Below, piece by piece: positions 4,250-24,851 of a DNA stretch of 38,949 nt. How positions within the stretch are numbered: the first letter of the stretch is position 1; each line of letters begins with the position of its first letter. The DNA lies in assembly GCA_947063875.1 (NCBI GenBank), contig CAMSTY010000033.1, forward strand, positions 1-38,949, read 5' to 3'. Below the pieces are notes generated by a model. The model was not told where the DNA came from and did not search any database. It worked only from the letters and a program-made list of their open reading frames with translations. The DNA is from an uncultured bacterium (lineage in GTDB: Bacteria; Bacillota; Clostridia; Lachnospirales; Lachnospiraceae). Position numbers and translations under genes: made by a program.

Positions 4250-5623
4250 ATGAAAGCTAAGGAAATGGTTGCTTTAGGAATCGCACTGACAATGGCTTTT
4301 TTGTTGGCGGCATGCGGGGAGGGGTCAGGCGACGGCGGAAACGTCGTAGCGGCGAATCTCCCCAGCATTGATAGTATTGAACTGGGGACGGATTATCAGG
4401 ATATCACAGCCAGTATTAAGGTTCTGACGAACCGTACGGACATTGTGGATACCACCTATAAGGGATATGCGGAGCAGTTCATGGAATTGTATCCCAATAT
4501 CACGGTGGAGTATGAGGCGGTCACGGATTATGAGGAAGCTTTGAATCTGCGGCTGCCTACCGGGGATTGGGGAGACATCTGCTATATACCCACTTCTGTG
4601 GCCAAGAGCGAGATGTCAGAGTATTTCTCACCTTTGGGAGATTTTGCTACCCTGAATGAGATTTATAATTTCCTGTCTGACAAGAATTACGGCGGAATCC
4701 AGTACGGAATTCCTAACGGCGGAACGGCGGGAGGCGTGATTTATAACAAGCGGATCTGGAAGGAAGCGGGTATTACAACGTTGCCTGCGACGCCGGACGA
4801 GTTTCTGGAATGCCTGCAGAAGATTAAGGATAACACGGGTGCGATTCCGCTGTATACCAATTTTGCGGCAGGCTGGCCCATGGGAGCATGGGATCAGTAT
4901 ATCGGGATTACGGCTACCGGAGATCCGGATTTTATGCTGAACAATCTGGCCCACACCAAAGACCCCTTTGCCAGGAGGGATGATATGTCTGGCCCATATG
5001 CTGTTTATTATGTGCTTTATGAGGCAGTCAGCAGGAAGCTGGTGGAGGATGACCCGGCCAGCAGTGACTGGGAGGCTTCCAAGGGCATGATCAACAAGGG
5101 CGAGATTGCCACTATGGTTCTGGGTTCCTGGGCAGTTGGGCAGTGCAGGGAAGCCGGTGCGACTCCGGAAGATGTGGGATATATGCCCTTCCCGATCACG
5201 GTAGATGGCAAGCGGTATGCTTCCGGCGACGGAAATTATTCTTACGCCATTAACAACAAGGCTGCGGAGGATAACCAGATTGCGGCTATGGTTTATCTGA
5301 AATGGCTGCTGGAAGAGTCGCCGATCTTTGCAGATGAGGATACCATCCCGGCGTTGAAGTCCGAGCCTCTTCCGGATTCTTTGTCTGAGTTTGACGGCGT
5401 GGAGATTCTCACCAACAATCCGGCTGTCGAGGGTGAGGAAACGTTATTTGATGATGTGAACAATGAGAGCGAGGTTGGCATCAACAACAATGACTATCCG
5501 GATTGTGAGATTCTGGAGAGCGCTCTTTATGGAACCAAGGATCTGGATACATTGATGGGAGAGTGGAATGCCAAGTGGTCCGCAGCCCAGGAAAGCCTGG
5601 GTGTGGATATTCTGAAATATTGA
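4250..5623 (+). CDS. Sugar ABC transporter substrate-binding lipoprotein
   Basis: A 457-residue extracellular solute-binding protein (family 1) that would capture oligosaccharides at the cell surface and pass them to the two permeases that follow. The N-terminus is a lipoprotein signal: a short charged start, a hydrophobic core and a LLAAC lipobox with the modified cysteine at residue 22, followed by a Gly/Ser-rich tether. The mature part has family-typical stretches such as FMELYPNITVEYE, a GGVIYNKRIWKEAGI block near residue 160-175 and a GEIATMVLGSWAVGQ block. A clear AAGAAGGGCGG ribosome site precedes the ATG. It is the first gene of the mannan import unit, so manno-oligosaccharides are the expected ligand; that is inference from context, not from binding-site residues. 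Confidence 0.9.
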   Translation: MKAKEMVALGIALTMAFLLAACGEGSGDGGNVVAANLPSIDSIELGTDYQDITASIKVLTNRTDIVDTTYKGYAEQFMELYPNITVEYEAVTDYEEALNLRLPTGDWGDICYIPTSVAKSEMSEYFSPLGDFATLNEIYNFLSDKNYGGIQYGIPNGGTAGGVIYNKRIWKEAGITTLPATPDEFLECLQKIKDNTGAIPLYTNFAAGWPMGAWDQYIGITATGDPDFMLNNLAHTKDPFARRDDMSGPYAVYYVLYEAVSRKLVEDDPASSDWEASKGMINKGEIATMVLGSWAVGQCREAGATPEDVGYMPFPITVDGKRYASGDGNYSYAINNKAAEDNQIAAMVYLKWLLEESPIFADEDTIPALKSEPLPDSLSEFDGVEILTNNPAVEGEETLFDDVNNESEVGINNNDYPDCEILESALYGTKDLDTLMGEWNAKWSAAQESLGVDILKY

Positions 5624-5647
5624 TAAGGGCGGAAAGGAGGATACAAC

Positions 5648-6655
5648 ATGGATAAAGTTGGGAATGCCATGGCAAGGAAGAAAACATTTGCCGAGAAGAT
5701 GAGAAGCAGGGAGGCGCAGCAGTTTTTAGTGATTGTGACCTTTTTGTTTGCACCTCTTTTGCTGCTGGTTGTATTTACCTATCTTCCGTTTCTGAGAATG
5801 GTGCAGTTCAGCTTCTACAATATGAAATATATCGGGCCGAAGAAATTTGTGGGGCTGGCCAATTATGTGGATGTATTTCACCGGACTGAGATTTTCCGTG
5901 CTTTGCTGGTAAGTGTGTATTATATGGGAGGCGCGGTGGTTCAGCTGGCGCTGGCGTTGTTTTTTGCCACTTTGATGGTATTTAAGGTGAAGGGGGAATC
6001 GGTGTTTAAGGCTGCTTTGTTCTTCCCTTATCTGATCTGCGGCATCGCGGTGGGTTTTATTTTCAAATTTTTCTATGCCCGTGGGTTTGTGCTGGATTCT
6101 TTGCTTCAGATGTTCGGAATGAAGCTGGAGGATATTCCCTATTGGCTCCAGGATCAGAGCATCAACAATGTGGCCCTGGCCGCAACCTCGGTGTGGCGGT
6201 ATACGGGGCAGAATATGGTCATGTTCCTGGGGGCCATGATGTCGGTGGATACGGACCTTTATGAGGCGGCGGCCCTGGATGGAGCCAACAACTGGCACAG
6301 GTTCCGCTACATCATTCTGCCCAGCATTAAGTCCATTATCGTACTGAATCTGATTCTTTCCATCAGTGGCTCTTTGAGCGCATTTGAGCCGCCCTACGTT
6401 ATCACAAACGGCACTATGGGAACCGGCACTTATTTCGTAATCATGAACCGTCTGGCTCATGAGAATCAGAAGGTGGGCCTGGCCTGTGCCATGGCAATCG
6501 TGCTGTTGGTTATCATTATTCTCTGTACCGTCGCCCAGAAGCTGTTCTTTGCCTATGTGTTTGACAATGGCACGGATGATGAGTCCAGGGCAGCGGTGAG
6601 AAAAAGGAAAAAGGCGGCGCAGAAAGGGAAAGCACGGAAAGGGGCGGCGGTATGA
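5648..6655 (+). CDS. Sugar ABC transporter permease 1 (MalF/UgpA type)
   Basis: A 335-residue inner-membrane permease with about six hydrophobic segments. The cytoplasmic coupling (EAA) loop is visible as EAAALDGANNWHRFRYIILP at about residues 200-220, which docks on the ATPase. The N-terminus and C-terminus are Lys/Arg-rich and cytoplasmic. An AGGAGG ribosome site lies 9 bases before the ATG. It starts 24 bases after the binding-protein gene and overlaps the next permease by four bases (ATGA), so the pair is translationally coupled. It would form the import channel for manno-oligosaccharides (inferred from neighbours). Confidence 0.93.
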   Translation: MDKVGNAMARKKTFAEKMRSREAQQFLVIVTFLFAPLLLLVVFTYLPFLRMVQFSFYNMKYIGPKKFVGLANYVDVFHRTEIFRALLVSVYYMGGAVVQLALALFFATLMVFKVKGESVFKAALFFPYLICGIAVGFIFKFFYARGFVLDSLLQMFGMKLEDIPYWLQDQSINNVALAATSVWRYTGQNMVMFLGAMMSVDTDLYEAAALDGANNWHRFRYIILPSIKSIIVLNLILSISGSLSAFEPPYVITNGTMGTGTYFVIMNRLAHENQKVGLACAMAIVLLVIIILCTVAQKLFFAYVFDNGTDDESRAAVRKRKKAAQKGKARKGAAV

Positions 6656-7497
6656 TGAAGAAAAAGAAAGGGATTTCGCTGGTATTTGAAATTTTAAAAT
6701 ATGTGTTTTTGACGTTGGCTGCCTTATGTGCGTTGATTCCGGTTTGCGTGTGTGTCCTGACGGCATTTAAGACGAATGAGGAGTATGCGGCTACCTCCGT
6801 TCTGGATTTGCCTCAGTCCTTTTTAAATTTTGATAACTTTGTGACTGCATTTCAGAAGGCCAACATGCTGCGGGGGTTTTTGAACACAGGCCTGGTACTG
6901 GTGGTGGTTTTGACGGCTTCCATTTTCATGGGTTCTATGCTGGCCTATGTTTTGAACCGGTTCAAATTCCCGGGGAGGGGACTGGTTCAGAATCTGTTTA
7001 TGTTTGCGGCGCTGCTTCCTGGTATTGCCATGCAGGTTACTATTTATCAGATCATGTATTCTCTGGGGCTGGTGAATCATCTGTATGGGTATATGATCGT
7101 GCTGATGGGTACGGATATTATTTCCATTTACATATTCCTGCAGTTTTTTGAGAACCTGCCGGTGTCGTTGGATGAGTCGGCGATTATGGATGGATGTACG
7201 TATTTCGGCGTGTTTTTTAAAATTCTGTTTCCTCTTTTGAAGCCGGCGATTATGACGTCCCTGCTGCTGAAGGGTGTGAGTGTTTATAATGAGTATTATG
7301 CTTCCAATCTGTATCTGCAGACTCCGAAGCTGAAGACTATTTCGACTGCTTTATATACCTTTACGGGGCCTTATGGAAACCAGTACAATTATATCTGTGC
7401 AGGTGTGCTGATTACCATCGCGCCGATTTTGATCCTGTTTTTGGTGTTTCAGAAGAGAGTGTATGGAGGTATGGCTGCAGGGGCAGTCAAGGGATAA
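6652..7497 (+). CDS. Sugar ABC transporter permease 2 (MalG type)
   Basis: A 281-residue permease with about six membrane segments, partner of the preceding one. The EAA loop reads DESAIMDGCTYFGVFFKIL, followed by the usual LFPLLKPA at about residues 175-200. The ATG lies inside the stop of the upstream gene (ATGA overlap), and a second in-frame ATG follows at once at 6655. No ATPase gene follows. In Firmicutes such transporters commonly share one MsmK/MalK-type ATPase encoded elsewhere, which is the probable case here. Confidence 0.93.
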   Translation: MMKKKKGISLVFEILKYVFLTLAALCALIPVCVCVLTAFKTNEEYAATSVLDLPQSFLNFDNFVTAFQKANMLRGFLNTGLVLVVVLTASIFMGSMLAYVLNRFKFPGRGLVQNLFMFAALLPGIAMQVTIYQIMYSLGLVNHLYGYMIVLMGTDIISIYIFLQFFENLPVSLDESAIMDGCTYFGVFFKILFPLLKPAIMTSLLLKGVSVYNEYYASNLYLQTPKLKTISTALYTFTGPYGNQYNYICAGVLITIAPILILFLVFQKRVYGGMAAGAVKG

Positions 7498-7525
7498 GCT
7501 GAAATTTCTGCTTTGAGGAGTGCGA

Positions 7526-7571
7526 GGGGGATGTCCCGGCACAGACGTTTTTTTGCCAGGGACGTACCCCC
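7526..7571 (+). other. Intergenic hairpin between permease and mannanase genes
   Basis: GGGGGATGTCCCGGC (7526-7540) can pair with GCCAGGGACGTACCCCC (7555-7571) in a long, slightly bulged stem with a loop that contains a T run. No T tract follows the stem, so it is unlikely to terminate on the plus strand. It may be a processing or stability hairpin that sets mRNA levels of the transporter part against the enzyme part of the operon (inference). Confidence 0.5.
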
Positions 7572-7612
7572 AAAACAAGAATCAGAACAAGCATATCTGG
7601 AGGTGTGCAGGG

Positions 7613-10600
7613 GTGAAGAGAGGATCAATAAGGATTAGGGAAGCGGCCGCCCTGATGATGGCAATTGCTTTGGCGGGTTCTCCCGTCTGCTCTGTGACTG
7701 CGTTCGGAGAACCGGAGGCAGGGGAAGTGGCGAGGGTCTGGGATTTTGAGGATGGGACGCAGGGCTGGGTATATGATGACAGCTGGTCCGGAGACAGCTA
7801 CAAGGGCGGCGGGAGCTGCGAATATGACGAGGAAAAGGGGATGCTGCGGCTGAACCTGGACTATTCTTTGAATACGGATAACAGTTACAGCCAGACGGGA
7901 ATCTGCCTAGCAGAGGAGGAAGGGATCGACTATTCTTCCTACAAGACACTGAATTTTGACCTTTATTATGACCCGGCGGCATTTTCTACGGGCCAGCTGG
8001 TGGTGAAGGCATTTTCCGATAATATTTTTGGAGAACAAAGCTGCAGGGTCATGGAGGCGCCTGCGGAGGATGTGGATGGATGGAAACTGGTGAATCTGTC
8101 CCTGAATTGTGATGAGAAATATACCCAGAGAGAGAAGCCGGGAAAGCTGATGCTTCTGATTGTGGGAGAATATACGGATTACCATGGATATGTGTGGTTG
8201 GATAATATCACACTGAGTAATGTGAAAAGAGAAAAATTTCTGAAGGAAAGCACGGTTTTGGTGAAGACGGAGACGGTGATTTCCGGCAGTGAAGGAGCGT
8301 TGTCAGTGAACGGGAAATCTTTTGACTATGCAAAAGAGGTGAAGCTGGCAGACCCGAAGGCGGATGCTTCGACGGTTGCGCTCTATCAATATTTGAAAGC
8401 GGTGGGGGAATCGGATGCCACCCTTTACGGGCATATGGAGGACATGGTGCTGAAAGCCGGGGCGGCAGATTTGTCGGATTCTGATACGGAGGATGTGACA
8501 GGGTCTTTGGCGGCGGTTGTGGGAATGGACTGCGGCGGGTTGTTTGGCGGGTTTGCCAGCAAGTATAATGAAAGGCACCCGGAGGCAAATATCCCGGATA
8601 CCAATGAGGGGAACATCAGGGCGGCGGCTCTGTTCAGCAACGAGGCCATTGACCGGGGGGCTATCGTTACCCTGTCGAGCCATATGCCGAACTTTTCGGA
8701 AGCCGTGAAGCTGGAAGGGAATTTTTCTCACAGCTATGACGGGTTTGATTTTACTGCGGCGGATTCCTATGTGCTGACCGGGAATTGCGCGAACCAGATT
8801 TTGCCGGGCGGGGCATTTAACGAGGCCTACCGCGCCCATCTGGATGTGATTGCAGATTATGTAAAGCAGGTTAAGGGGCCGGTGCTGTTCCGGCCGCTTC
8901 ATGAGAACACAGGAAGCTGGTTCTGGTGGGGCAAGGCGTTTTGTGATGCGGAAACCTACAAAAGTAATTACAAATATACGGTTGAATATTTGCGGGATGA
9001 GAAGGATGTCCATAATCTGTTATATCTCTATGGGCCAGGTTCGGAGGCGGCAAGCCTGGAGGAGTATGAGGAACGGTATCCGGGTGACGAGTATGTAGAC
9101 CTGGTAGGATTTGACACTTATGACAATAATCCGGCGCCGGATTCGGAAGGATATACCTTCCGGCAGAGTTTTGAAAATACCATAAAGCTGACGGATGCTT
9201 TTGCAAAGGAGCATAAAAAGCTGATGGCGGTGACGGAGACGGGGATGTCGCCCATGAAGGCGGGGGGAATCCCGGAAACGGGGAACCGGAGGCCGGAGTG
9301 GTATACGGAAGTCCTGGATATTATGACGAAACCAGAGTATGATTGCTGTTATTTTATGCTGTGGTCCAATTATGCCAGAAGCGGCGGGTATTATTCTCCC
9401 TTTGTGACGGAGAAAAGGGAGGGCGGCAAACTGTTTGGGCATGAATTGCTGGATTCTTTTATTTCCATGTACAATGATGAGAAAAGCATATTTGCGAAGG
9501 ATCAGGCGGGAGTGATGAAGGATATCCTTGCCGGAAGGCTGGCGGAAGCAGACAGCCTGCTTTACGGAAGGGTGACGGGTTATATCACCAGCCCGGTGGC
9601 CGGAGAGAGAATCCTGGAAGAGCAGGTCTTAATGGCAAATCTGAACCAGGAGGCGTCCAATGTGGAGTTCCGGCTGGAGGGCAGCGGAGAATCGGCTGTT
9701 ATCGCGGCAGATGTGGCCGGGAAAAAGGCGGAAGCCGTTTTGGATGAGAATGCCCTGGCAAAGCTGGGGGAGGTGGCAGACGGAAAGATCGGGTTGTATG
9801 CAGACGGCGAGAAGCTGCAGGAAATCCGCCTGATCTTCAATATTGCCCCCAGACCGGAGGACCCGCTTCTGGTTGACGATTTTGAAGCTTATGCAGGATT
9901 GATGAATCTTTTGCTGGACAGCTGGAGCAGCAATAAGGATGGCGGTTGCGAACTGAGCATCAGCCTGTCAGATGAGTGGAAACATGATGGGGAATATGCC
10001 CTGAAGTTTGATTACATGGAAACCAGCAACGGCTGGGCAGGCTGTGAATTCCCCAAGGAAGCGGACTGGTCGGATTGTGATGCCCTGCAGTTTTGGGTGA
10101 AGCCGGACGGAAACAATCAGAAGACGGTGGTGCAGATCAGCACGGCCAGCGGCGGTTCCTATGAAGCGTATCTGCAGGAGTATCCGGAGTATGCGTCCAC
10201 CACGGACCCGATGCTGGTTACTATGCCTTTTGGAGAATTTCAGGATAAGAACGGGAAAGGGAAGCTGACATCAGAAGCGGCAGCAGATATCTCCGGATTC
10301 GGACTGTGGGTCAATGCGATCGGGGATTCACCGGCTATCGACGAGAACGGCGAGGTTCGCGGTGTTCTGTATTATGATGATATTAAGGTGGTGGCATCCC
10401 AAAAGACAGCGCCGGAGTTTGAGATCACGGAACATGTAGGCGGAGAAGCTGATGCGGCGGACAATAAGAGCGCGGACGGCGGCGGGGCAAATGGCGCAGG
10501 TACGGCAGAGAGGGAGGAGGCAGCGGTAACGGCAGGAAATATTTCCTGGACGATGTATTTCGTACCGGCCGTTTCCGGACTGATTGCCCTGGTGGCTGTG

Positions 10601-10639
10601 GGCTGCATGGCTGTGCTGGCGGTGAAGAAGAGAGGATAG
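7613..10639 (+). CDS. Secreted membrane-anchored GH26 beta-mannanase with carbohydrate-binding modules
   Basis: An endo-beta-1,4-mannanase that would cut mannan or galactomannan at the cell surface. The start chosen is the GTG at 7613, with TGGAGG nine bases upstream. It gives 1008 residues beginning with a signal peptide (about 1-31); the longer open frame has no signal at its start. Order: N-terminal jelly-roll module resembling a CBM27-type mannan-binding domain (about 40-205), GH26 catalytic domain (about 255-630) with acid/base Glu431 in RPLHENTGSWFWWG and nucleophile Glu542 in VTETG, an Ig-like linker domain (about 650-745), a second CBM23/CBM11-like module (about 753-925), a Ser/Ala/Gly-rich spacer, and a C-terminal hydrophobic helix with a KKRG stop (about 975-1008). 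There is no LPXTG sorting signal, so anchoring is by the membrane helix. Module family names are judged by eye. Confidence 0.9.
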   Translation: MKRGSIRIREAAALMMAIALAGSPVCSVTAFGEPEAGEVARVWDFEDGTQGWVYDDSWSGDSYKGGGSCEYDEEKGMLRLNLDYSLNTDNSYSQTGICLAEEEGIDYSSYKTLNFDLYYDPAAFSTGQLVVKAFSDNIFGEQSCRVMEAPAEDVDGWKLVNLSLNCDEKYTQREKPGKLMLLIVGEYTDYHGYVWLDNITLSNVKREKFLKESTVLVKTETVISGSEGALSVNGKSFDYAKEVKLADPKADASTVALYQYLKAVGESDATLYGHMEDMVLKAGAADLSDSDTEDVTGSLAAVVGMDCGGLFGGFASKYNERHPEANIPDTNEGNIRAAALFSNEAIDRGAIVTLSSHMPNFSEAVKLEGNFSHSYDGFDFTAADSYVLTGNCANQILPGGAFNEAYRAHLDVIADYVKQVKGPVLFRPLHENTGSWFWWGKAFCDAETYKSNYKYTVEYLRDEKDVHNLLYLYGPGSEAASLEEYEERYPGDEYVDLVGFDTYDNNPAPDSEGYTFRQSFENTIKLTDAFAKEHKKLMAVTETGMSPMKAGGIPETGNRRPEWYTEVLDIMTKPEYDCCYFMLWSNYARSGGYYSPFVTEKREGGKLFGHELLDSFISMYNDEKSIFAKDQAGVMKDILAGRLAEADSLLYGRVTGYITSPVAGERILEEQVLMANLNQEASNVEFRLEGSGESAVIAADVAGKKAEAVLDENALAKLGEVADGKIGLYADGEKLQEIRLIFNIAPRPEDPLLVDDFEAYAGLMNLLLDSWSSNKDGGCELSISLSDEWKHDGEYALKFDYMETSNGWAGCEFPKEADWSDCDALQFWVKPDGNNQKTVVQISTASGGSYEAYLQEYPEYASTTDPMLVTMPFGEFQDKNGKGKLTSEAAADISGFGLWVNAIGDSPAIDENGEVRGVLYYDDIKVVASQKTAPEFEITEHVGGEADAADNKSADGGGANGAGTAEREEAAVTAGNISWTMYFVPAVSGLIALVAVGCMAVLAVKKRG

Positions 10640-10669: not shown

Positions 10670-13600
10670 ATGAAGCATATTGCGAAACTTTGGGAAAATA
10701 TGCTGGCAAAGAGAGCTTTATCGATGGCGCTTTGCTTGGCTTTGGCAGTTACCTCCGGAGGAGTATGTATCGCGTCTACCAATAACCTGGTCCAGGAAAC
10801 CCGGGCAGCCGGAGGGGAGGAAAGCCAGCCGGAAAGTGAAGCAGAGACCGAAGCGGTTCGGGAAGAGGCTGGGACATCGCCGGAATCCGTGGAAATGGAA
10901 GGGGAGGTTCTGGAAGATGATACAAAGGCTGAGGAACCGGAGGATACCCGGTGCATTCATGAGTTTACTGCGGCATGGGTGGGTTATGAGTGCAAATTGA
11001 CGGATTTTGTGGATGGCTATGAGCCGGGGGATGAAGTAAGGATTTCCGTGTCCTTCAATAAAGCCGTTACCAGCCAGATCGGATTGTACATTGACGGTGT
11101 ATGGAATTCATTCCGCGGCGAGGGAAAGAAAAGAAACATTACCCTGGTGCCGGACAGTGATTATCTGAATATTCAGATTTCCGATCTGAAAGGCCAGGCA
11201 AGCGTGAACCTGACGGAGATTTCCGCGGAGATTGTCCGCAAGGGCGAGGCGGATACGGGAAGCTATCTGCACAAATTTACCGGGCTGTGGCAGGGATTTG
11301 AGACAAAATTTTCGGATTTTAATCCGGATTATGAGCCTGGGGATGAGGTCCGGGTGACAGTAAATTACAGCAAATATGTGTCCAGCCAGCTGGGGATGAA
11401 CATCGGCGGAGAGTGGAGCACCCTGACCGGGGACGGCAAGGAACTGATCAAGGACATGACGCCGGACAATGATTATCTGAATATCCAGATTACGGATATG
11501 TGGGCGAATTATAAGGTTGGGATCATCTCCATAAGCGTGGATATTCTGAAGAAAGGGCCTGGCGTGTCGGGATTTGGCGGCGGAGGCGGCCGCCTGGCGG
11601 CTACCCAATATAAGGAGCCGGGGGACTATGTATTATTTTCCGGGGAGGCCAACGGCAAATATGAGACGAATGACGGATGGATTCTGGACTGTGCAGATAC
11701 AGACTGGATCACTTTGAGGTATTCCTGTGCGCCGGAGCATGAGAACTGGGGCGTCCTGGGCTGGGGCGCCACGGTGGACGGCGAGTGGGTAGACGGGCCG
11801 GGGTATAGTGCAGACAGTTCCGATTCCACCAGGGAGGTCACTCAGACCTTCAGTGTAAAGTACCTGCGGAAAATGATGAAGATTACGCCGGAGAGCAATG
11901 TGAGTTATCTGAACCTGGGTTCCTATAGTGACGGGCAGATCGAGGAACTGACGCTGCATGTGGGGTCGGAGATTCCCAGGGAGAGATCTTTATTTAAGGA
12001 CGGGGCGCCCAACCAGGCGTGGAATTGTACGGATATCGAACGGATCTTGGATGCGCCGGATGAAAAATACCTCTGTGTTCAGTACCGCTGCGCCGTGTCG
12101 GATTTTAACGGCTGGACGATTCTTAATTGGGGCGCTTCGGTGAACGGAGAGTGGAGGAACGGGAAAAGCTACAAGGCTTCCTACAAGGAGGCAACCAGAG
12201 ATAAATTTACCAGTATGCGGATGGATTCGTTCCGGAATATGCTGCATTTGAGCTGGGATGTAAAGGTAGACTCTATTCAGCTGGCGGCTTATAATGACGC
12301 ACAGATTCTGGATATCTGGATCAGTGATGATAAAGTAGAAGATCCGGGAGAAGAGAAGAAAGAGCGGGAAGTGAGGGAGGGTTCCTATCACTCTTCCAAT
12401 ACCGGCGCCTATAATCAGATCCTGAGACAGCCGGGTGCCGAATATGTGCAGAACCTCACCCTTAAGGGCTGGGAATGGGGGGATTTGAAGGGAGCTCAGC
12501 AAATAATCCGCAGCCTGAAGAAAAACACATATCTGATAGTGGAATTTGAGGCAGAGGAAGGAGAGGAGCCAAACCTGCAGTTCAGCATGGCAGACGGAAA
12601 GCAGCAGGGAGTGACCCCTGTCTACATATCCGGCAATCAGGCGCTGTTTTCCTACGAGGATATCCAGGATTTCCTGCCAAGTTATCTGATTCCGCAGGAG
12701 GTCAGCAACCTGCAAATCAGTGCGGGGGAGAGCGGGATGACCATAAAAAGCGTGAAGGTGATTGCGTATGAAACAGAACTGGATGAAGATCCGATCGGAG
12801 TGCTGACCAGTTCCTGGAGCGGTTTTGGAACGCAGATCAGCAAGTGGCATTCGGATTATGAGCCGGGAAAGGATACGGTAAAGGTAACGGTAACCTTTGA
12901 CAAACCTGCACCGGGATCAATTGCCTTCAATATGGGAGGAGCCTGGAATAACGGCAGCTCCATGAATTCAACAACCATCACCCGTACGGCGAAGCCGGAT
13001 GATGATTATTTGGGCATTCAGTTGGGAGAGATGCCGAAGGGCAAGAGCTATGTGCTGATCAAGGATATCAAGGTTGAGATTGTAGGAAAGATTAATTTCA
13101 ATGAATTGGTGGAGGTGGAAGGAAGCCGAAGCGCCGGTATGCTGGCTTCGACAAAAAAGGAAGCGGCAACGGCTGTCCTAAGTGACGAAGAGATCAAAAA
13201 AGGAACGAAGGTGATTTTTGAACTGAAAAATTCTTCTCTGTCGGCAAAAGAACAGGCGGAGGTAAAGGCTCTGTTTGGCAGCCAGGCAGACAAGATAAGC
13301 ACCGGAAAGGCTGTGGATATTAACGTTTACAAAGAGGATGACGGAAAACGGACGCAGATCACGCAGACGGATGATCCGGTGAAATTTAAAATGTCAGTGC
13401 CGGATGAATTGCAGGGCAAAGGGTATGATTTTGCCGTAGTGGAGAATCATGGCAGAGAACGGATCAAACTGAAAGATTTGGATAGTAATCCGTCAACAAT
13501 TACCTTTGCCGTCAGTAAATTTTCAAAATTTGTAATTGTATATGGAGAAGAGGGATCTTTTGACGAACGGGTTCACACTTTCTATACGACCGGCGATTGG

Positions 13601-16099
13601 GAATTTGAATTAAAAAAATATTATCCGGATTATAACCCAAAAGAAGAAGTGACAATTAAAGCGGTCTTGAGTTCAGACGGATGGTTTAATGGCAGCTTTA
13701 AGGGAAATGCCGTAGATGGGTGGGTTCAGAAAGACTTTGAGAGCAATGGTGAAAACCGGGTGGAAGTAGAATGGACGGGATGCCCGTCTGGCGAAACGAT
13801 GCTGCTGAATGTCGGCTGGATATCTGGAAAAATTGTGAAGGTTGACAGACTGACGGTGGAGAAAAAAGCAGAGGAGCCATCCATTCACACCTATACTGCG
13901 GCAGGGGATTGGGAATTTAAATTATCAGATTATTGCGCAGGTTATAAACCGAAGGACAATGTGGAAATCAAGGCGACATTAAGTTCGGACGGGTGGTTTA
14001 ACGGCAGCCTTAAAGGCGATGCCGTGGAAGGCTGGGCGCAAAAGAATTTTGAAAGTAATAGTGAAAATCAGGTAGAGGTAGAGTGGGCGGGGTGTCCATC
14101 TGGCGAAACGATGCTGCTGAACGTGGGGTGGATATCCGGGAAAACCGTGAAGGTTGATAACCTGACGGTAGTAAAAAAATCTGCGGAACAGATCATACAT
14201 GAATTTACGGCCGAAGAGGACTGGGAGTTCACATTATCCGATTACTGTTCCGATTATAAACCGGAAGACGAGGTGGTAATCAAAGCGACTTTGAGTTCGG
14301 ACGCATGGTTCAACGGCAGCTTTAAGGGCAACGCTGTAGGCGGCTGGACACAGGAGGACTTCGAGAGTGATGGTGAAAACCGGGTGGAAGTGGAGTGGAT
14401 AGGGCGCCCGTCCGGAGGGACCATGCTTCTGAGAGTGGGGTGGCTGAACGGGAAGAAAGTAAATGTTGATCAACTGACGGTTACAAAAAAATCGGCAGGA
14501 CAGATAATTCATAGTTTCACTCAGACGGGCAGTTATGAATTGACTCTGAAGAAGTATTGCCCGGATTATGAAGAACGGGATACTGTGCTGGTGACTGTGG
14601 ATTTGAGTTCCGATCAGGGATTTGGAGGAATCCTGGAAGGGAATGTCCATAAGGCGGCCGATCCTGGATATGAGTGGGCAAAAGCAAATCAGGGGAATAA
14701 ATTTGAAGCTTCCATGAATCAGGGGAAATACAGATCCACTTTCACATGGACCGTAAGGCCTAGCGGCAGCAGCATCAATGTGAGCATCTGGAATATGGAC
14801 AGCGGCTCTACAGGCGTTGACATCAATAAAATTTCCGTGGTGAAAGTAGCGACGCCCTGTGACATTCCCAATCAGAAAAATGCGGAAGACGGCTATGATT
14901 CCTATCCGTTGGATCTGAAGGAGTATTTAAGCAGCATTGAAATAGGGAAAACCGAAATAAATGTCACGGTGGAATTAACCTCCAATAGTTACTTTAATGG
15001 CGTTCTGGGAGGAAATGCAGTCGATGATAGCAGTGAGGACGGCTATAGCTGGAAGCAATCAGATAGTTTTGAAGCAGCGTCATCCGGCGGTGTATATAAA
15101 GCGGCCGCTACATGGACCGGAGTACCCAGTGGCGACAGCGTCAATGTGAATATCTGGTGGATGAATAAGGATTCACAAGGAGTGAATGTGGAAAGGGTGG
15201 CCGTGACCGCGATAAAATCCTTCGATGGCATTATTCAATCGGAAGACTATGTTTATATGTTTACCGAGCCGGAAACCATTATTTTGGAACTGGCAGATTA
15301 TTATGACGAATATGAAGAAGGCCAGGGTGTGGCAGTAGAACTGAATCTGTTCTCGAACGGGAACTTCTACGCCATGGTAGAAGATGCCGATTATGTGACG
15401 GCTGTGATTTCGGACCAGGCATCCAAGGATGATAAGGCAGAGGAAGGCTTGCTTACAGCAACCGCTTCCAATGCAGAACCAGCAGTCGCGACGGCTTCCA
15501 ACGCTATGCCCGCCGAAACGAAAACAAAGACGAAAACAAAGACGAGAACAAAGGCGGAAGCAGCAAAGGCGACCCCTTCCAATGCAACTCCGGCAGAAGC
15601 GACCCCTTCCAATGCAACTCCGGCAGAAGCGACCGCTGTTTCCGGAGATTCGTCAACAAGGACGAGTAAGGCTGTAGCTTATGAGAGCGATGAAGATGGT
15701 ATTTTGACGGTTGTGTGGTTTGGAAATCCACAGTCGGGAAGCATTGCGGTGACGATTCTGGATATGGACGGAACACAGGTGAATATTGATACGATCGATG
15801 TGGAGGAAAAGGCGGGAGCAGTATCGGTCAAGGCGGTAGCCGCCTCGGCAGCAAACGATATGGCATCTGAGAATTCAAAGGAGAAAGGGGATTTTGCAGA
15901 ACCGGAGCCGGCGAAAAAGGAGGAAGAACTGACAGGATGTCCGGATGATGTGAAAAAGGAGGAAGAAGAATGGGAAGAACCGGAAAAAGAGACAGATGAG
16001 GAGCCGGACAAAGAAGAAATGTGGCCGGAATTGGACGATGCTTATGTGAATGAAGCTGACGAACCAGATCCGGATCTGGAAGAAAGGCTGCTGTCGTGA
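10670..16099 (+). CDS. Giant secreted multi-module protein of the mannan locus, no catalytic domain recognised
   Basis: 1809 residues, function unknown. A signal peptide (about 1-47) is followed by an acidic linker. Then come modules that start [IL]H-x-[FY]-T and carry a DY-x-P-x-D signature: three of type A (about 96-190, 200-297, 709-805), two Trp-rich type C (319-435, 440-556), a related single module (about 575-705), an Ig-like domain ending FSKFVIVYGEEG (about 806-965), and six of type B (starts near 968, 1072, 1176, 1280, 1398, 1527). The last is interrupted by a low-complexity SNA-x-P / Lys-Thr insert (about 1595-1660). The tail (about 1720-1809) is very acidic, and no LPXTG, cohesin, dockerin or SLH motif was seen. 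The modules look like beta-sandwich carbohydrate-binding domains with exposed Trp. It starts 30 bases after the mannanase with a strong GGGAGGGAAGGA site, so it is co-expressed. The likely role is polysaccharide capture or scaffolding at the surface; this is inference. Confidence 0.85.
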   Translation: MKHIAKLWENMLAKRALSMALCLALAVTSGGVCIASTNNLVQETRAAGGEESQPESEAETEAVREEAGTSPESVEMEGEVLEDDTKAEEPEDTRCIHEFTAAWVGYECKLTDFVDGYEPGDEVRISVSFNKAVTSQIGLYIDGVWNSFRGEGKKRNITLVPDSDYLNIQISDLKGQASVNLTEISAEIVRKGEADTGSYLHKFTGLWQGFETKFSDFNPDYEPGDEVRVTVNYSKYVSSQLGMNIGGEWSTLTGDGKELIKDMTPDNDYLNIQITDMWANYKVGIISISVDILKKGPGVSGFGGGGGRLAATQYKEPGDYVLFSGEANGKYETNDGWILDCADTDWITLRYSCAPEHENWGVLGWGATVDGEWVDGPGYSADSSDSTREVTQTFSVKYLRKMMKITPESNVSYLNLGSYSDGQIEELTLHVGSEIPRERSLFKDGAPNQAWNCTDIERILDAPDEKYLCVQYRCAVSDFNGWTILNWGASVNGEWRNGKSYKASYKEATRDKFTSMRMDSFRNMLHLSWDVKVDSIQLAAYNDAQILDIWISDDKVEDPGEEKKEREVREGSYHSSNTGAYNQILRQPGAEYVQNLTLKGWEWGDLKGAQQIIRSLKKNTYLIVEFEAEEGEEPNLQFSMADGKQQGVTPVYISGNQALFSYEDIQDFLPSYLIPQEVSNLQISAGESGMTIKSVKVIAYETELDEDPIGVLTSSWSGFGTQISKWHSDYEPGKDTVKVTVTFDKPAPGSIAFNMGGAWNNGSSMNSTTITRTAKPDDDYLGIQLGEMPKGKSYVLIKDIKVEIVGKINFNELVEVEGSRSAGMLASTKKEAATAVLSDEEIKKGTKVIFELKNSSLSAKEQAEVKALFGSQADKISTGKAVDINVYKEDDGKRTQITQTDDPVKFKMSVPDELQGKGYDFAVVENHGRERIKLKDLDSNPSTITFAVSKFSKFVIVYGEEGSFDERVHTFYTTGDWEFELKKYYPDYNPKEEVTIKAVLSSDGWFNGSFKGNAVDGWVQKDFESNGENRVEVEWTGCPSGETMLLNVGWISGKIVKVDRLTVEKKAEEPSIHTYTAAGDWEFKLSDYCAGYKPKDNVEIKATLSSDGWFNGSLKGDAVEGWAQKNFESNSENQVEVEWAGCPSGETMLLNVGWISGKTVKVDNLTVVKKSAEQIIHEFTAEEDWEFTLSDYCSDYKPEDEVVIKATLSSDAWFNGSFKGNAVGGWTQEDFESDGENRVEVEWIGRPSGGTMLLRVGWLNGKKVNVDQLTVTKKSAGQIIHSFTQTGSYELTLKKYCPDYEERDTVLVTVDLSSDQGFGGILEGNVHKAADPGYEWAKANQGNKFEASMNQGKYRSTFTWTVRPSGSSINVSIWNMDSGSTGVDINKISVVKVATPCDIPNQKNAEDGYDSYPLDLKEYLSSIEIGKTEINVTVELTSNSYFNGVLGGNAVDDSSEDGYSWKQSDSFEAASSGGVYKAAATWTGVPSGDSVNVNIWWMNKDSQGVNVERVAVTAIKSFDGIIQSEDYVYMFTEPETIILELADYYDEYEEGQGVAVELNLFSNGNFYAMVEDADYVTAVISDQASKDDKAEEGLLTATASNAEPAVATASNAMPAETKTKTKTKTRTKAEAAKATPSNATPAEATPSNATPAEATAVSGDSSTRTSKAVAYESDEDGILTVVWFGNPQSGSIAVTILDMDGTQVNIDTIDVEEKAGAVSVKAVAASAANDMASENSKEKGDFAEPEPAKKEEELTGCPDDVKKEEEEWEEPEKETDEEPDKEEMWPELDDAYVNEADEPDPDLEERLLS
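13571..14818 (+). repeat. Four tandem 312-bp module repeats inside the giant gene
   Basis: Modules begin at 13571, 13883, 14195 and 14507, exactly 312 bases (104 codons) apart. The first three encode near-identical protein (LSSDGWFNGS, FES-x-x-EN-x-VEVEW, PSG-x-TMLL-x-VGW) and remain similar at the DNA level, with many silent differences; the fourth is more diverged and longer. This indicates in-frame duplication followed by selection on the protein. Confidence 0.85.
15571..15630 (+). repeat. Two perfect 30-bp tandem repeats encoding ATPSNATPAE
   Basis: Bases 15571-15600 and 15601-15630 are identical 30-base units, in frame in the giant gene. They are preceded by a shorter 12-base repeat (ACAAAGACGAAA-like, about 15527-15550) that encodes the alternating Lys-Thr stretch. 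Such units are prone to length change. Confidence 0.9.
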
Positions 16100-16162: not shown

Positions 16163-16226
16163 AACAGCAATATAGCCGGAAAATGGCAGGAATTTGTCGG
16201 CAGTCCGGATATATTGCTGTTTTTTT
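16163..16226 (+). terminator. Terminator of mannan unit 1
   Basis: AACAGCAATATA (16163-16174) pairs perfectly with TATATTGCTGTT (16210-16221). An inner GCCGGA/TCCGG stem is also possible, and a run of about seven T residues follows. It lies 64 bases after the giant gene and ends the transporter-mannanase unit. Confidence 0.85.
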
Positions 16227-16418: not shown

Positions 16419-16498
16419 ATAGTGTAAGATTAACAAAAATATGAAATTACTTTATTTTTCTATTGAAATTAAGCTAAATTAATACTATAATTAAACTA
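16419..16498 (+). promoter_or_regulatory. Mannan promoter module 2
   Basis: TTGAAA (16463-16468), 17 bases, then TATAAT (16486-16491). ATAGTGT lies at 16419-16425, 44 bases before the -35 box, followed by TTAACAAAAATA. The element matches module 1 at 4144-4222 along most of its length, including TTTTCTATTGAAATTAA before and into the spacer. It drives the alpha-galactosidase to mutase unit, with a leader of about 220 bases. Confidence 0.8.
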
Positions 16499-16543: not shown

Positions 16544-16721
16544 TATTAAAGCATCGTTTAAGAACGGATAAAGTATATTTAATTATGCTGGGGAAGGTGG
16601 ATGCGGTTTCAAGGAATGATGGATGAGAGGATGAGGGCGTGATCTAAGATCTTATGAAATAGATTATGGGTTTTCGCCAGGATTGTCTCTGAGAAAAACA
16701 GAGGTCAGGAGGACATTGGGA

Positions 16722-18932
16722 ATGAGAATTGAATATCTGGAGAGAGAAAAGCTTTTCCGGCTGACGGCGAAGGATACGGAGTATGTGATCGGAATTGCAG
16801 ACGAGAGATATATCGGGCACGTGCATTTTGGGAAAAAGATGGGGGAGAACCGGTGCGGCTGCCTGCTGCGGACAGAAGAGGCGCCCTTCGTGCCGTCAAA
16901 GAATCTGCGGGATAAATGTTCCTTTGCGGATGCGTTTCCGGCAGAGTACTCAACCTGGGGGGTGGGAGATTACCGGGACAGCTGCCTGAATGTGCGCAGC
17001 AGCGATGGATTCCGGGGATGTGAACTGCATTATGAAAATTACCGGACTGTGGATGGCAAGCCGGGTCTGCCGGGAATGCCGGCCACTTTTTGCCGGGAGG
17101 GAGAGGACGGAGCCGGAATGACCTTGGAACTGGAATGCCGGGACAAGGTGCTAGAACTGAAGGTGATTCTGCGCTACAGCGTGTTTGCAGACAGCGAGGC
17201 GGTAATTCGCAGTGCGGAACTGGTCAATGAGGGAAAGGGGCCCTTGTATCTGGAGCGTGTCCTGACGGCCTGTATGGACATGGATATGGAAGGCGGGGAT
17301 TTGCTGACGCTGGGAGGCTCTTGGGCCAGAGAACGGCATATGGCCCGGCGGCCATTGGCCTTTGGCAAGCAGATGGTTTCTTCCTTCCGGGGGGAGTCAG
17401 GGCATCAGGATCATCCTTTTCTTGCGGTGATGGGACAGGACGCGGGCCAGGACCGGGGAGAGATTTGGGCCATGCATTTTGTGTATTCCGGTAATTTTAT
17501 GGCGGAGGCAGAGGTGAACCAGTTTGGCATGGTAAGACTTTTAATGGGAATCAACCCGGAGGGATTCGAGTGGGTCCTGAAGCCAGGGGAAGCCTTTGCT
17601 ACGCCGGAGGTGGTATGTGTCTACTCGGATGAGGGGTTGGGGAAGATGAGCCGCATTTTCCATGACCTGTACCGGGGGCATTTGATCCGCAGTCCTTATC
17701 TGCACAGGAAGAGGCCGATTCTGATCAATAACTGGGAGGCTACCTATTTTGACTTTGATACGGAGAAGCTGCTGGAGATTGCCAGGGAGGCCGGTAAGCG
17801 GGGAATCGAGATGCTGGTTATGGATGACGGCTGGTTCGGAGACCGGAACAAGGATGAAGGCTATCTGGGAGACTGGGAGGTAAATGAGAAAAAACTTTCC
17901 GGCGGTCTGCCTTATCTGGTGGAACAGGTAAAGGCCCTGGGAATGGAGTTTGGAATCTGGTTTGAGCCGGAGATGGTTTCTCCGGATTCCAAGCTGTACC
18001 GGATGCATCCGGACTGGGCCATCCGGATTCCGGGAAGGGAGCCGGTTCAGAGCCGGGCTCAGTATGTGCTGGATTTGACCAGGCCGGAGGTTGTGGATTA
18101 TGTGTATGAGTCCGTGGCCGGGATTCTGCGGAGCGCTCCCATTTCTTATGTGAAATGGGATATGAACCGGCAGATGACGGATGTGGGAAGTGCTTATCTG
18201 GGGCGGGAGCATCAGGGAGAGTTGTTTCACCGGTATGTGCTGGGGGTGTATGAACTTCAGGAACGGCTGGTGAGGGAATTCCCGGAGTTATTGTTGGAAA
18301 ATTGTGCCAGCGGCGGGGCGCGGTTTGACCCGGGAATGTTGTATTACAGTCCTCAGATCTGGTGCTCCGATGATACGGATGCCATTGAGCGGCTGGCGAT
18401 TCAGGAAGGCACGGCCCTTTTGTATCCGTTAAGCGCCATAGGGGCCCATGTGAGCGCCTGTCCCAATCATCTTGTTGGGAGGGTAACGCCTTTTGGGACC
18501 CGGGGGCATGTGGCTATGGCAGGGACTTTTGGCTATGAACTGGATGTGACCAAATTGCCGGAGGAGGAGAAACGGCTGATTGAGGAGCAGGTGAAACTGT
18601 ACCACCGGTTCCAGCCTCTGGTGAGGGAGGGGGATTATTACCGGATTGCCTCCTGGAATGAGAATCATAAATATGATTGCTGGCAGATCGTGTCAAAAGA
18701 TAAGAGGGAGGCGCTGCTGACTTACGTGCAGGTACTGGCGGAGCCTAACGGGCATAGCAGGAAAATCCGGCTAAAGGGCCTGGACTTGGAGGCGGAGTAC
18801 CGCCTGGAGGGGGACCAGCTGGCAAAGGAAGGGCAGATATTTAAAGGGGCATTTCTGATGTACGGAGGACTCCTGATTCCCCGGATGCAGGGGGATTTTA
18901 CAAGTGTGATGATTTACCTTAAGCAAGTATAA
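16722..18932 (+). CDS. Alpha-galactosidase, GH36
   Basis: A cytoplasmic retaining alpha-galactosidase that would remove alpha-1,6-galactose side chains from imported galactomanno-oligosaccharides. The frame opens at a TTG at 16683, but the ATG at 16722 has a perfect AGGAGG nine bases upstream, so 736 residues are called, the usual length for clostridial GH36. Motifs: NNWEATYFDFD, LVMDDGWFG, GIWFEPEMVSPDS, the nucleophile Asp in YVKWDMNR and the acid/base Asp in WCSDDTDAIERL. There is no signal peptide, which agrees with intracellular action after import. It is the first gene of unit 2, behind promoter module 2; the next gene starts 115 bases later. Confidence 0.94.
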   Translation: MRIEYLEREKLFRLTAKDTEYVIGIADERYIGHVHFGKKMGENRCGCLLRTEEAPFVPSKNLRDKCSFADAFPAEYSTWGVGDYRDSCLNVRSSDGFRGCELHYENYRTVDGKPGLPGMPATFCREGEDGAGMTLELECRDKVLELKVILRYSVFADSEAVIRSAELVNEGKGPLYLERVLTACMDMDMEGGDLLTLGGSWARERHMARRPLAFGKQMVSSFRGESGHQDHPFLAVMGQDAGQDRGEIWAMHFVYSGNFMAEAEVNQFGMVRLLMGINPEGFEWVLKPGEAFATPEVVCVYSDEGLGKMSRIFHDLYRGHLIRSPYLHRKRPILINNWEATYFDFDTEKLLEIAREAGKRGIEMLVMDDGWFGDRNKDEGYLGDWEVNEKKLSGGLPYLVEQVKALGMEFGIWFEPEMVSPDSKLYRMHPDWAIRIPGREPVQSRAQYVLDLTRPEVVDYVYESVAGILRSAPISYVKWDMNRQMTDVGSAYLGREHQGELFHRYVLGVYELQERLVREFPELLLENCASGGARFDPGMLYYSPQIWCSDDTDAIERLAIQEGTALLYPLSAIGAHVSACPNHLVGRVTPFGTRGHVAMAGTFGYELDVTKLPEEEKRLIEEQVKLYHRFQPLVREGDYYRIASWNENHKYDCWQIVSKDKREALLTYVQVLAEPNGHSRKIRLKGLDLEAEYRLEGDQLAKEGQIFKGAFLMYGGLLIPRMQGDFTSVMIYLKQV

Positions 18933-19047
18933 ACGATTGTTAAAATAAGAAAAATTGTTTCAAAGGGGCATAAGGCAAATGCTTGCCGCCGAATGGCGGG
19001 TGAGAAGCAAAACAGAATATACAAATTATAGGCAGGAGGATACGAGA

Positions 19048-20061
19048 ATGAAAATTATTGCACCAGCGATTAAAAATATGCCATGGCAGGAGCCGGCAAA
19101 TGCGCCAGTGGATGCGCCGGTGTGGCGGTATCGGGAGAATCCGATAGTAGGAAGAAATCCGGTGAAAGGGGTCGCCAGAATTTTTAATTCGGCGGTGATC
19201 CCTTTTGAGGATGGGTTTATCGGCGTGTTCCGGGGGGAGCAGGTCAATGGGGTCCCTTATATTTACCTGGGAAGAAGCGAGGATGGGGTCCATTGGAACT
19301 TTGACGAGGAAAAGATCCATTTTGTGGATGAGAGCGGGAAGGAATTTATGCCCAGATATGCCTACGACCCAAGGCTGGTAAAGGTGGAGGATACTTATTA
19401 TCTGATCTGGTGCCAGGATTTTTACGGGGCTTCCATCGGCCTGGCAAAGACGAAAGATTTCAAACGTTTTGAGCGGCTGGAAAATCCTTTTATGCCCTTT
19501 AACCGGAATGCGGTGCTGTTTCCCAGAAGAGTCCATGGGAATTTTATGATGCTGTCCCGGCCCAGTGACAGCGGCCACACGCCCTTTGGAGACATTTTCC
19601 TCAGTGAGAGTCCCGATATGGTGTATTGGGGGAAACATCGCCATGTGATGGGAAAAGGCGACGAATGGTGGCAGATGCTGAAAATCGGCGGGGGCGCGGC
19701 CCCCATTGAGACGGATGAGGGGTGGCTGCTGTTCTATCATGGCGTGACAGGAACCTGTAATGGATATGTGTACAGCATTGGCGGGGCAATTTTGGATATT
19801 GACAATCCTTCTGTTGTGAAATACCGCTGTGAGAATTTCTTGCTGACACCGGAGGAATGGTATGAGGAACGTGGGTTTGTGCCGAATGTGTGCTTTCCTT
19901 GCGCAACCGTCTGCGACCCGGAGGACGGGCGGATCGCTATCTATTATGGGGCGGCGGACAGCTACATCGGGCTGGCGTTTACCAGGGCGGATGAGATCGC
20001 GGCTTATATCAAGGGGCACAGCCGGCTGACGGAGAGTGATCGGGAGATTGGCATCCGCTGA
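19048..20061 (+). CDS. GH130 beta-1,4-manno-oligosaccharide phosphorylase
   Basis: An inverting phosphorylase that would release mannose-1-phosphate from the non-reducing end of manno-oligosaccharides in the cytoplasm. The ATG at 19048 follows AGGAGG by 7 bases and gives 337 residues; the longer open frame to 18955 has no ribosome site. A five-bladed beta-propeller is expected for the family. The probable catalytic Asp107 lies in AYDPRLVK, with GRSEDGVHW before it and a DIFLSESPDM strand after it. The length and sequence type differ from the second GH130 of this locus (391 residues), so the two probably act on different chain lengths, as described for the Roseburia pair. Substrate assignment is by family and context. 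Confidence 0.87.
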   Translation: MKIIAPAIKNMPWQEPANAPVDAPVWRYRENPIVGRNPVKGVARIFNSAVIPFEDGFIGVFRGEQVNGVPYIYLGRSEDGVHWNFDEEKIHFVDESGKEFMPRYAYDPRLVKVEDTYYLIWCQDFYGASIGLAKTKDFKRFERLENPFMPFNRNAVLFPRRVHGNFMMLSRPSDSGHTPFGDIFLSESPDMVYWGKHRHVMGKGDEWWQMLKIGGGAAPIETDEGWLLFYHGVTGTCNGYVYSIGGAILDIDNPSVVKYRCENFLLTPEEWYEERGFVPNVCFPCATVCDPEDGRIAIYYGAADSYIGLAFTRADEIAAYIKGHSRLTESDREIGIR

Positions 20062-20099
20062 GAAAAGCAGGAGAATCTGATAGGGAAAAGGAGTGCAGA

Positions 20100-21293
20100 A
20101 TGGTACAGGAAATCGAGAAGCATTTGAGGGAAAAGCTGATTCCCTTCTGGGAGGGATTGGCGGACTGGCAGCAGGGGGGATTCTATGGTTATCTGGGATA
20201 TGATCTGAAACTGGATAAGCGGGCGGAAAAGGGGGTTATTTTAAACAGCAGGATTTTATGGTTCTTTTCTAATGCGTTTTTGACATTGGGAGAAAAAGGG
20301 TTATTGATTTATGCGGAACATGCTTATCTGTTCCTGCGGGATTGCTGCCTGGATAAAAAATTCGGGGGCGTGTACTGGTCCCTGACCTGTGAGGGAAAGG
20401 CGGAGGATGAGACAAAGCATACCTACAACCAGGCATTTGCAATCTATGCCCTTTCTTCTTATTATGCAGCTAGCGGGAAGCGGGAGGCTCTGGATCTGGC
20501 ATATGGGCTGTATGAGCTGATTGAGAAGCGCTGCCGGGATGAAGGCGGGTACGGGGAAGCTTATGACCGGGAATTTGTGCCGGTTTCCAATGAAAAACTT
20601 TCGGAAAACGGGGTGATGGCAACCCGGACCATGAATACTCTGCTTCACGTGTTTGAGGCTTACACGGAACTTTACCGGGTGGATCACCGGCCGGATGTGG
20701 CGGATAAGCTGCGGCAGATTCTGGATGTGTTTGCAGATAAGGTTTACAATCCGCAGAAACGGCGGCAGGAGGTGTTTTTTGACGGGGAGTGGAATTCTCT
20801 GATTGATCTTCATTCTTATGGACATGACATTGAGACGTCATGGCTTTTGGACCGGGGATGCCAGACGCTTGGGGATGAGAAGTACACTAAGAAGATGGAA
20901 CCCATGATCCTGGCGATGGCAGAGGAGATCTATGGGCGGGCCTACCGGAACCATAGTGTGATGAACGAATGTGAAAACGGGGTGGAAAATACGAACCGGA
21001 TCTGGTGGGTACAGGCGGAGTCGGTGGTGGGATTTTTGAATGCCTGGGAGAAATGGCCGGAGAAGGAGTATTTTTGGGAGGCGGCGAAGGATATCTGGAA
21101 GTATATCTGCCTGGTAATGGTGGATAAGCGGGCAGGTTCGGAGTGGTACTGGCGGGTGGATGAAATCGGAAAGCCGATCGAGGGCGAGCCGATCGTGGAA
21201 CCGTGGAAGTGTCCTTATCACAATGGAAGGATGTGTATGGAAGTGATTCGCAGGCAGAAGGGGAAACAGGAGCAGGAACCGGAAAACAGATAG
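20100..21293 (+). CDS. Cellobiose/mannobiose 2-epimerase (AGE family)
   Basis: A 397-residue cytoplasmic epimerase that would convert the reducing-end mannose of mannobiose to glucose, giving mannosyl-glucose for the second GH130. It has the (alpha/alpha)6-barrel family motifs: [47 protein letters not shown], the His-rich [26 protein letters not shown] and [15 protein letters not shown], which hold the histidines known to act in cellobiose 2-epimerases. An AAGGAG ribosome site precedes the ATG. It lies between the two GH130 genes. The last 12 codons are tandemly duplicated as a 36-base unit across the stop codon (see 21256-21325). N-acylglucosamine 2-epimerase is a less likely reading given the neighbours. 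Confidence 0.9.
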
Positions 21294-21325
21294 AAGGGGA
21301 AGCGGGAGCAGGAACCGGAAAACAG
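21256..21325 (+). repeat. 34-bp tandem repeat spanning the epimerase stop codon
   Basis: Bases 21256-21289 and 21292-21325 match at 32 of 34 positions with a period of 36 (12 codons). The TAG stop (21291-21293) falls at the junction. The second copy stays in frame and would add 17 residues, up to a TGA, if the stop were read through. Confidence 0.85.
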
Positions 21326-21351
21326 GAAGAATAAAAAGAAGAGGTGACGTT

Positions 21352-22527: not shown

Positions 22528-22598
22528 GGGCTGAGAAGAGCCGGTATTTTATCGGGAAGCAATTGTGATACAGGGAAGGAAAACGAGAGGTTGGGAAT

Positions 22599-24341: not shown

Positions 24342-24345
24342 AGAG

Positions 24346-24666: not shown

Positions 24667-24851
24667 ATGCTTCCTCCCTTTCTCTGATGACCGGAGTGGT
24701 TTTTGCTCATAACCATAAGTGTACTGAGCAATTATAAGATATTTTACTATATTCTGAAAAGAAAGTCACCCTATACTCAGATGATTGATAATATCCATAA
24801 ATGGATAATATTCGTAAAATAGAAGAATAAAGGGAAAAGAAGAGAAATCGG

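Follow-up and report, generated by a model that had tools for sequence, protein, structure and literature searches.

The window analysed here, one complete contig (C33, 38,949 bases) from a draft genome of 3.49 Mb, encodes a giant multi-module protein without recognised catalytic domain (hereafter the big protein), which in our judgement is probably a detached, length-variable array of carbohydrate-binding modules (CBMs) capturing beta-mannan for an anchored GH26 mannanase and an ABC importer. As read from its sequence, the protein would supply the binding arm, itself non-catalytic, of a Gram-positive beta-mannan system; it is a polypeptide in its own right, encoded next to the membrane-anchored GH26. 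A conserved head (A1-A2-B1-B2, the CBM65-like module C, A3 and E), its modules presumably folded for glycan binding, would bind beta-1,4-linked mannan or glucomannan, and a variable run of further A modules would serve as an avidity array or a stalk. The interrupted module A9 and the acidic tail may hold the protein at or in the cell wall. Mannan captured by the array would be locally more concentrated at the GH26, whose products would then enter via the adjacent ABC importer (Table 1).

Table 1. Positions of the features in the window, with the basis of each call.
Feature	Position	Strand	Basis or remark
LacI-family regulator	2845..3861	+	Pfam/NCBIfam scan
Promoter-like element before solute-binding gene	4184..4215	+	TTGAAA-17-TATAAT at 4187
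ABC importer, solute-binding protein + two permeases	4250..7497	+	Pfam/NCBIfam scan
GH26 partner with CBM17_28-like region, CBM11 and C-terminal membrane-helix-like stretch	7520..10639	+	Pfam, hydrophobicity
Big gene, 1809-aa non-catalytic multi-module protein	10670..16099	+	ORF call, ATG start, Pfam + NCBIfam scans
Signal-peptide-like N-terminus, aa 1-36	10670..10777	+	hydrophobic aa 16-37; kept in orthologs
Module A1, aa 95-193	10952..11248	+	profiles; 89% mean column identity, 10 sequences
Module A2, aa 199-295	11264..11554	+	profiles; 87% mean column identity, 10 sequences
Module B1, aa about 315-433	11612..11968	+	homologs on GH26 and GH5 enzymes elsewhere; 89% identity
Module B2, aa about 437-555	11978..12334	+	profiles; 82% mean column identity
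Module C, aa 579-702, CBM65_1-like	12404..12775	+	Pfam on excised module; 67% identity
Module A3, aa 708-808	12791..13093	+	profiles; 73% mean column identity
Module E, aa 809-962, without tryptophan	13094..13555	+	68% mean column identity
Module A4 (= D1), aa 968-1068, opens variable repeat section	13571..13873	+	profiles
Module A5 (= D2), aa 1072-1170	13883..14179	+	profiles
Module A6 (= D3), aa 1176-1274	14195..14491	+	profiles
Module A7 (= D4), aa 1280-1394	14507..14851	+	profiles
Module A8 (= D5), aa 1395-1517	14852..15220	+	profiles
Module A9 (= D6), aa 1525-1715, low-complexity insert with SNA repeats	15242..15814	+	profiles
Acidic tail, aa 1716-1809, PAKKEE motif in most orthologs	15815..16096	+	composition, motif search
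Terminator-like hairpin + T run 3' of big gene	16198..16226	+	one among 21 in the region (shuffles: 12.2)
Promoter-like element before GH36 gene	16460..16491	+	resembles 4187 element; at 16463
GH36, GH130, cellobiose-type 2-epimerase, GH130, phosphohexomutase, GH1	16683..26337	+	beta-mannan-type locus, remainder

A giant protein encoded behind a putatively membrane-anchored mannanase

The original prediction had placed a secreted protein directly downstream of a membrane-anchored GH26, and the layout agrees with it. Only 30 nt separate the stop of the GH26 ORF from the ATG of the big gene, which is preceded by a purine-rich ribosome-site-like stretch. The GH26 ORF (Pfam: GH26, E 7.6e-38; CBM11, E 4.6e-11; a CBM17_28-like region at 22.5 bits versus a cut-off of 25) contains two hydrophobic stretches, at aa 41-63 and aa 1008-1039, the latter helix-like and ending in Lys/Arg. 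The big protein has a single one, signal-peptide-like and located at its N-terminus, where inspection by eye did not reveal a canonical lipobox. Scanned as a whole against Pfam and NCBIfam it gave no match above cut-off, hence no detected enzyme, cohesin, dockerin or SLH domain and no match to a known non-carbohydrate family. Sorting motifs are equally missing, as had been predicted: a loose LPXTG-like pattern matched at aa 160 and 1686 only, neither of them C-terminal, and the search for an LPXTG-type C-terminus, SLH domains or a dockerin found none. Whole-protein and profile searches against PDB sequences returned nothing usable, and among the matches listed from the open-licence PMC literature no title or abstract was recognisable as dealing with this protein.

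Two features at the C-terminus go beyond the original prediction, namely the interruption of the last module and the acidic tail (37% D/E). The tail carries the motif PA(R)KKEE in seven of the eight proteins that reach it (the exception is L039; L045, whose contig ends behind the motif, is counted among the eight), compared with 0.0005 expected on shuffling, and the motif is absent from the more distant G158 and G161 proteins described below. The low-complexity insert and this tail are our candidates for keeping the big protein with the cell. The tail could also be enlisted for a structural scaffold that joins mannanase and importer via protein-protein contacts, a role that the tandem modules and the co-occurrence with GH26 would suit as well. 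We regard this as improbable, since neither cohesin nor dockerin nor another known docking domain was detected, and since a relative in which the array is fused to GH26 (G158, see below) needs no docking device. Part of the original prediction was a scaffold role, and no cohesin-like part was found for it in the big protein.

The surrounding genes combine GH26, an ABC importer, GH130, an epimerase, GH36 and a phosphomutase, the set by which Gram-positive beta-mannan loci are recognised when compared with those described in PMC6385246. SusC and SusD are absent among the neighbouring ORFs scanned; the importer is of the ABC type. The promoter-like element was found with its exact pattern before the solute-binding gene in five of eight ortholog loci and before the GH36 gene in both loci examined, while L032 has a variant, none was found in L036, and in L034 the position of the ORF start left too little upstream sequence for this check. 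Region scans exceed their shuffles for promoter-like sites (31 versus 18.2) and for terminator-like sites (21 versus 12.2), so that any single site is weak evidence. No palindrome could be assigned as the LacI site, and a single weak inverted repeat, rich in A and T, lies across the promoter-like element. Similar AT-rich elements of this kind precede two transcription units of the locus (4180-4215 and 16456-16491), which counts in favour of the capture reading, and a LacI operator may overlap the element. Elsewhere in the window, the stretch 27888-29618 (minus strand) has a partial likeness to models of the germination pseudoproteases CspC/CspBA, far below their cut-offs.

Thirteen modules of four sequence families

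Hand delineation combined with iterated HMMs resolved the big protein into 13 modules, where about a dozen had been predicted, belonging to four sequence families (nine A, two B, one C and one E). They are arranged in the order A1, A2, B1, B2, C, A3, E and six more A-type copies (D1-D6, hereafter the distal A copies), followed by the acidic tail. The nine A copies score 42-106 bits with the D-seeded iterated profile and are repeats far beyond chance. The original prediction had distinguished two module types sharing motifs. The motifs are there, the exact pattern [IL]H-x-[FY]-T occurring five times and [DG]Y-x-P six times in the protein, but the types are sub-groups of a single family, A: profiles seeded with A and with D find each other's copies, and compared with each other they align with an hhalign probability of 95.5 (E 1.6e-8). 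Between families, on the other hand, profile comparison detected no relation (A-B, A-C, B-C and A-E), nor did A-B and D-B comparisons on small profiles. Tryptophan makes up 2-5% of eight of the nine A copies in the window and 0.5% of the interrupted A9. Conserved aromatic positions of the B alignment are W44, W49, W57 and Y63. Ranked by mean column identity over ten sequences, A1, A2, B1 and B2 (82-89%) stand above C, A3 and E (67-73%), and the A1-A2-B1-B2 part of the head is, on this sequence ranking, the likely core of binding.

Two families without a name in the libraries searched and a CBM65-like module

A new CBM family had been predicted, and A and B are the candidates for it. Neither the 93 members of A nor the 15 members of B consistently matched a Pfam family. 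Searched as profiles against PDB sequences, A, B, C and E did not lead to any meaningful relative, A and B yielding no more than scattered weak matches. A and B thus stand as families without a name in Pfam or a relative among PDB sequences, a novelty that holds for these libraries, and both now become directly testable. Among the 93 A members, one matched CBM_4_9 (E 0.0059), and weak matches to Big_12 (5/93), Fn3-like (4/93) and Big_15 (1/93) were seen; a Dockerin_1 match in one member (E 0.05) was taken as chance. We rejected the weak Pfam matches, which lie below cut-off and concern one or few members; they include CBM_48 (for module E), a MEIOB OB-fold, Big_12, InlB repeats, Dockerin_1 and PCuAC.

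Module C, by contrast, resembles a described family. Once excised, nine of its ten copies match CBM65_1 (PF18259) at E <= 1 (best E 2.4e-5), and the window copy aligns along most of the profile (21-113 of 113; 18.8 bits, E 0.0019), below the curated cut-off of 25 bits; the whole-protein Pfam scan did not list the family. We thus describe C as CBM65-like and do not call it a member of CBM65. CBM65-type modules of R. albus, as reported in PMC4954948, bind Avicel and xyloglucan, and mannan and konjac glucomannan weakly. Module E contains no tryptophan and has no named relative in the libraries searched. No module copy of the window passes a curated Pfam CBM cut-off, and this counts against the capture reading, as do the lack of an anchoring motif and the lack of tryptophan in E.

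Homologous modules on mannanases and other enzymes

In a family-wide set of 299 genomes from 298 genera, the B profile was found in seven and the A profile in six, the window's own genome being included in both counts. The sixth A genome, G128, owes its match to chance likeness with a repeat protein of the InlB type; it stays in this count and is left out of our reading. At the level of the class, the B profile was found in the window's genome only (1/391). GH26 is present in 46 of the 299 genomes of the family and in six of the seven with module B (Fisher 6e-5), and fusions of B are seen with GH26 (two genera) and with GH5 (one genus). A likewise shares a polypeptide with GH5 and, in G158, with GH26, so that both families occur joined to a carbohydrate-active enzyme, the general hallmark of a CBM. 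Together with the CBM65 likeness of C, the co-distribution with GH26 and the operon-like unit, these fusions bear out the predicted tie of the modules to the mannanase.

A whole-protein ortholog (1974 aa) occurs in G161, of another genus, where its gene directly follows that of a GH26 whose C-terminus has a hydrophobic stretch. This pair lies (L085, G161:C43, 1254-18435) among genes for a further GH26, carrying CBM35, and for a GH2 and a GH43, each carrying CBM6. The most instructive relative is found in G158 (genus g136), where one frame of 2278 aa joins the latter half of a GH26 domain to B-B-C-A-E-A(x8) and a charged tail, keeping the module order of the window minus A1-A2. The stretch between the half GH26 and the modules is alignable to the window's GH26 (567 aa, 41%), Pfam seeing no CBM11 in it, and a frame break separates this frame from the first part of the GH26, which belongs to the ORF before it. 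A search for the fused frame in 60 genomes related to G158 gave matches in four, all within the part of the query before B, and the fusion therefore rests on one genome. The G158 frame shows that array and GH26 can be one protein, where the lineage of the window has two, and the split and fused forms offer a natural experiment on the separation of capture from cutting. Further points against the capture reading are that the fusion rests on this single genome and that the fused protein lacks A1-A2, a pair ranking with the most conserved modules of the window's protein.

The same genome also encodes a GH5 protein with one A module. In G312, a 526-aa protein consists of B followed by GH26, and in G332 an 866-aa protein of GH5 followed by B and Big_2 repeats, the nearest solved relative of this GH5 being a xyloglucanase. 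Other carriers have no recognised enzyme domain: the G267 protein (1126 aa, with a hydrophobic stretch at its N-terminus) combines one B with two A and matches nothing in Pfam, and G273 has B and A on two ORFs at contig edges. In neither genome was an enzyme domain found on the B-bearing protein or a GH26 on the same contig, and B therefore need not be mannan-specific. The G267 gene (L086, G267:C3, 4490-12396) encodes repetitive linkers rich in Gly, Thr and Glu and lies near two MCPsignal chemotaxis-receptor genes and a DUF4397 gene.

The ligand might also be beta-glucan, xyloglucan or the mixed plant wall, the big protein then being a general plant-wall adhesin from which the mannanase benefits. 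The B module on a GH5 nearest a xyloglucanase fits such a ligand, and so do the CBM11- and CBM17_28-like regions of the window's GH26, both families being known for glucans. The pairing with GH26 in the genus and the position in a mannan-type locus speak for mannan instead, and we consider a general adhesin rather unlikely. The resemblance of C to CBM65 is a further point in its favour, the members studied binding xyloglucan and glucans (PMC4954948).

Comparison with described glycan-binding systems

The loci of Roseburia intestinalis, as described in PMC6385246, have in common with the window LacI, a solute-binding protein, two permeases, GH26, two GH130, an epimerase, GH36, GH1 and a phosphomutase, gene kinds which that paper reports as induced on beta-mannan. 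Its surface enzyme RiGH26 captures the polymer through binding modules, as we predict from sequence for the surface GH26 and the modules here. According to the same source, however, the R. intestinalis GH26 belongs to a separate small locus and bears its own CBM27 and CBM23, and the ORFs scanned here did not include the GH3, GH113 and esterases it lists. Whereas R. intestinalis has its binding modules on the mannanase, here the modules of binding type reside mostly on a second, larger, enzyme-free protein, as in Bacteroides ovatus (PMC6385246). The mannan PUL of B. ovatus, in the accounts of PMC5217682 and PMC6385246, likewise keeps binding separate from a surface GH26 within one locus; the organism is Gram-negative and has two surface binding proteins, which are likened to ours by description and not by sequence.

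Among Gram-positive systems, CttA of Ruminococcus flavefaciens also uses tandem CBMs for substrate targeting, but docks by an X-dockerin on anchored ScaE (as described in PMC5301203), whereas no dockerin was detected in the big protein. Sas20 of Ruminococcus bromii, as presented in PMC9112005, is another multi-domain Firmicute glycan-binding protein with features hard to predict from sequence; it binds starch as a part of the amylosome, and the likeness is one of description, not of sequence. CBM112 is a recent example of a new mannan-binding CBM tied to GH26. As PMC13357471 describes it, this module is inserted in the catalytic domain of Bacteroidales GH26, and it too is likened by description and not by sequence.

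A fixed head and a variable array

Matches to the big protein at E <= 0.001 were obtained in 14 of 61 genomes (the window's own and 60 relatives), and in nine of them, the own genome and eight of the same genus, the match covers the long N-terminal core. Core identity is 70-74% in seven genomes; in G004 it is 57% over aa 1-587 and 37% over aa 591-965. The remaining five matches are short, three of them to module E, one to the low-complexity insert and one to the N-terminal 160 aa. A scan of public genomes, with the alignment of the core as query, gave nine loci, six of them titled MAG. The order of the head modules is identical in the ten aligned sequences, whereas the number of distal A copies varies from 6 to 11 in the seven of them that are terminated by a stop (the count of 9 in L043 is possibly one too high, since a single interrupted module may account for its last two matches); the other three, L037, L040 and L045, run into contig ends after 5, 5 and 8 distal copies, respectively. 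The closest distal copies are 100% identical in DNA sequence in L045, 97% in L044 and 94% in L042. Such near-identical copies suggest that the A array is amplifying now, copy number in draft assemblies being uncertain.

This variability, with some copies being recent tandem duplicates, would also be expected of a stalk, and only B and C, perhaps with A1-A2, might bind glycan, the distal A copies being an Ig-like spacer that pushes the head outward. The few A members with weak matches to Big_12, Fn3-like and Big_15 point in this direction, and the evidence from fusion and CBM65 likeness favours B and C most strongly. Yet the tryptophan content of eight of the nine A copies in the window, the conservation of A1 and A2 as high as that of B, and the occurrence of A singly on a GH5 protein, a setting that fits a lone spacer less well, argue for binding by A, and we consider the spacer possible though doubtful. 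The protein may be a Gram-positive counterpart of surface glycan-binding proteins, with two undescribed CBM families (A and B) in a giant, tandemly amplifying capture protein, split from GH26 or never fused to it, in which species would adjust avidity or reach by varying how many distal A copies they carry while keeping A1-A2-B1-B2 fixed; we would give this wider proposal, judged from sequence, slightly less than an even chance.

Co-occurrence of the array with the mannanase

The order LacI, solute-binding protein, permease, permease, GH26, big protein is kept in all eight ortholog loci examined (the public locus L042 is not among these eight). The C-terminal hydrophobic stretch of GH26 is found in the eight loci and in the pair of the other genus (L085), and is absent from the fused protein. 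Within the genus, a profile of the B pair and the window's GH26 find the same nine of 24 genomes, both being absent from the other 15 (Fisher 7.6e-7, a value that ignores shared descent). This co-occurrence bears also on a host- or mucin-directed adhesin that would lie in the mannan operon by chance. Giant repeat-rich surface proteins are often adhesins, and the architecture of the big protein is of this kind. The kept gene order, the absence shared with GH26 and the module homologs on GH26 and GH5 proteins make such a role very improbable.

In one of the eight loci, L031 (G013:C20, 7420-9452), GH26 is in two pieces, while the frame of the neighbouring big protein is open throughout. Jointly the pieces lack residues about 347-680 of the window's GH26, a span that takes in a large share of the catalytic domain. 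This may reflect an assembly fault or a species that has kept capture and lost cutting. Another member of the genus encodes a second, more distant GH26 homolog with 46% identity (L116, G008:C72, 428-2890).
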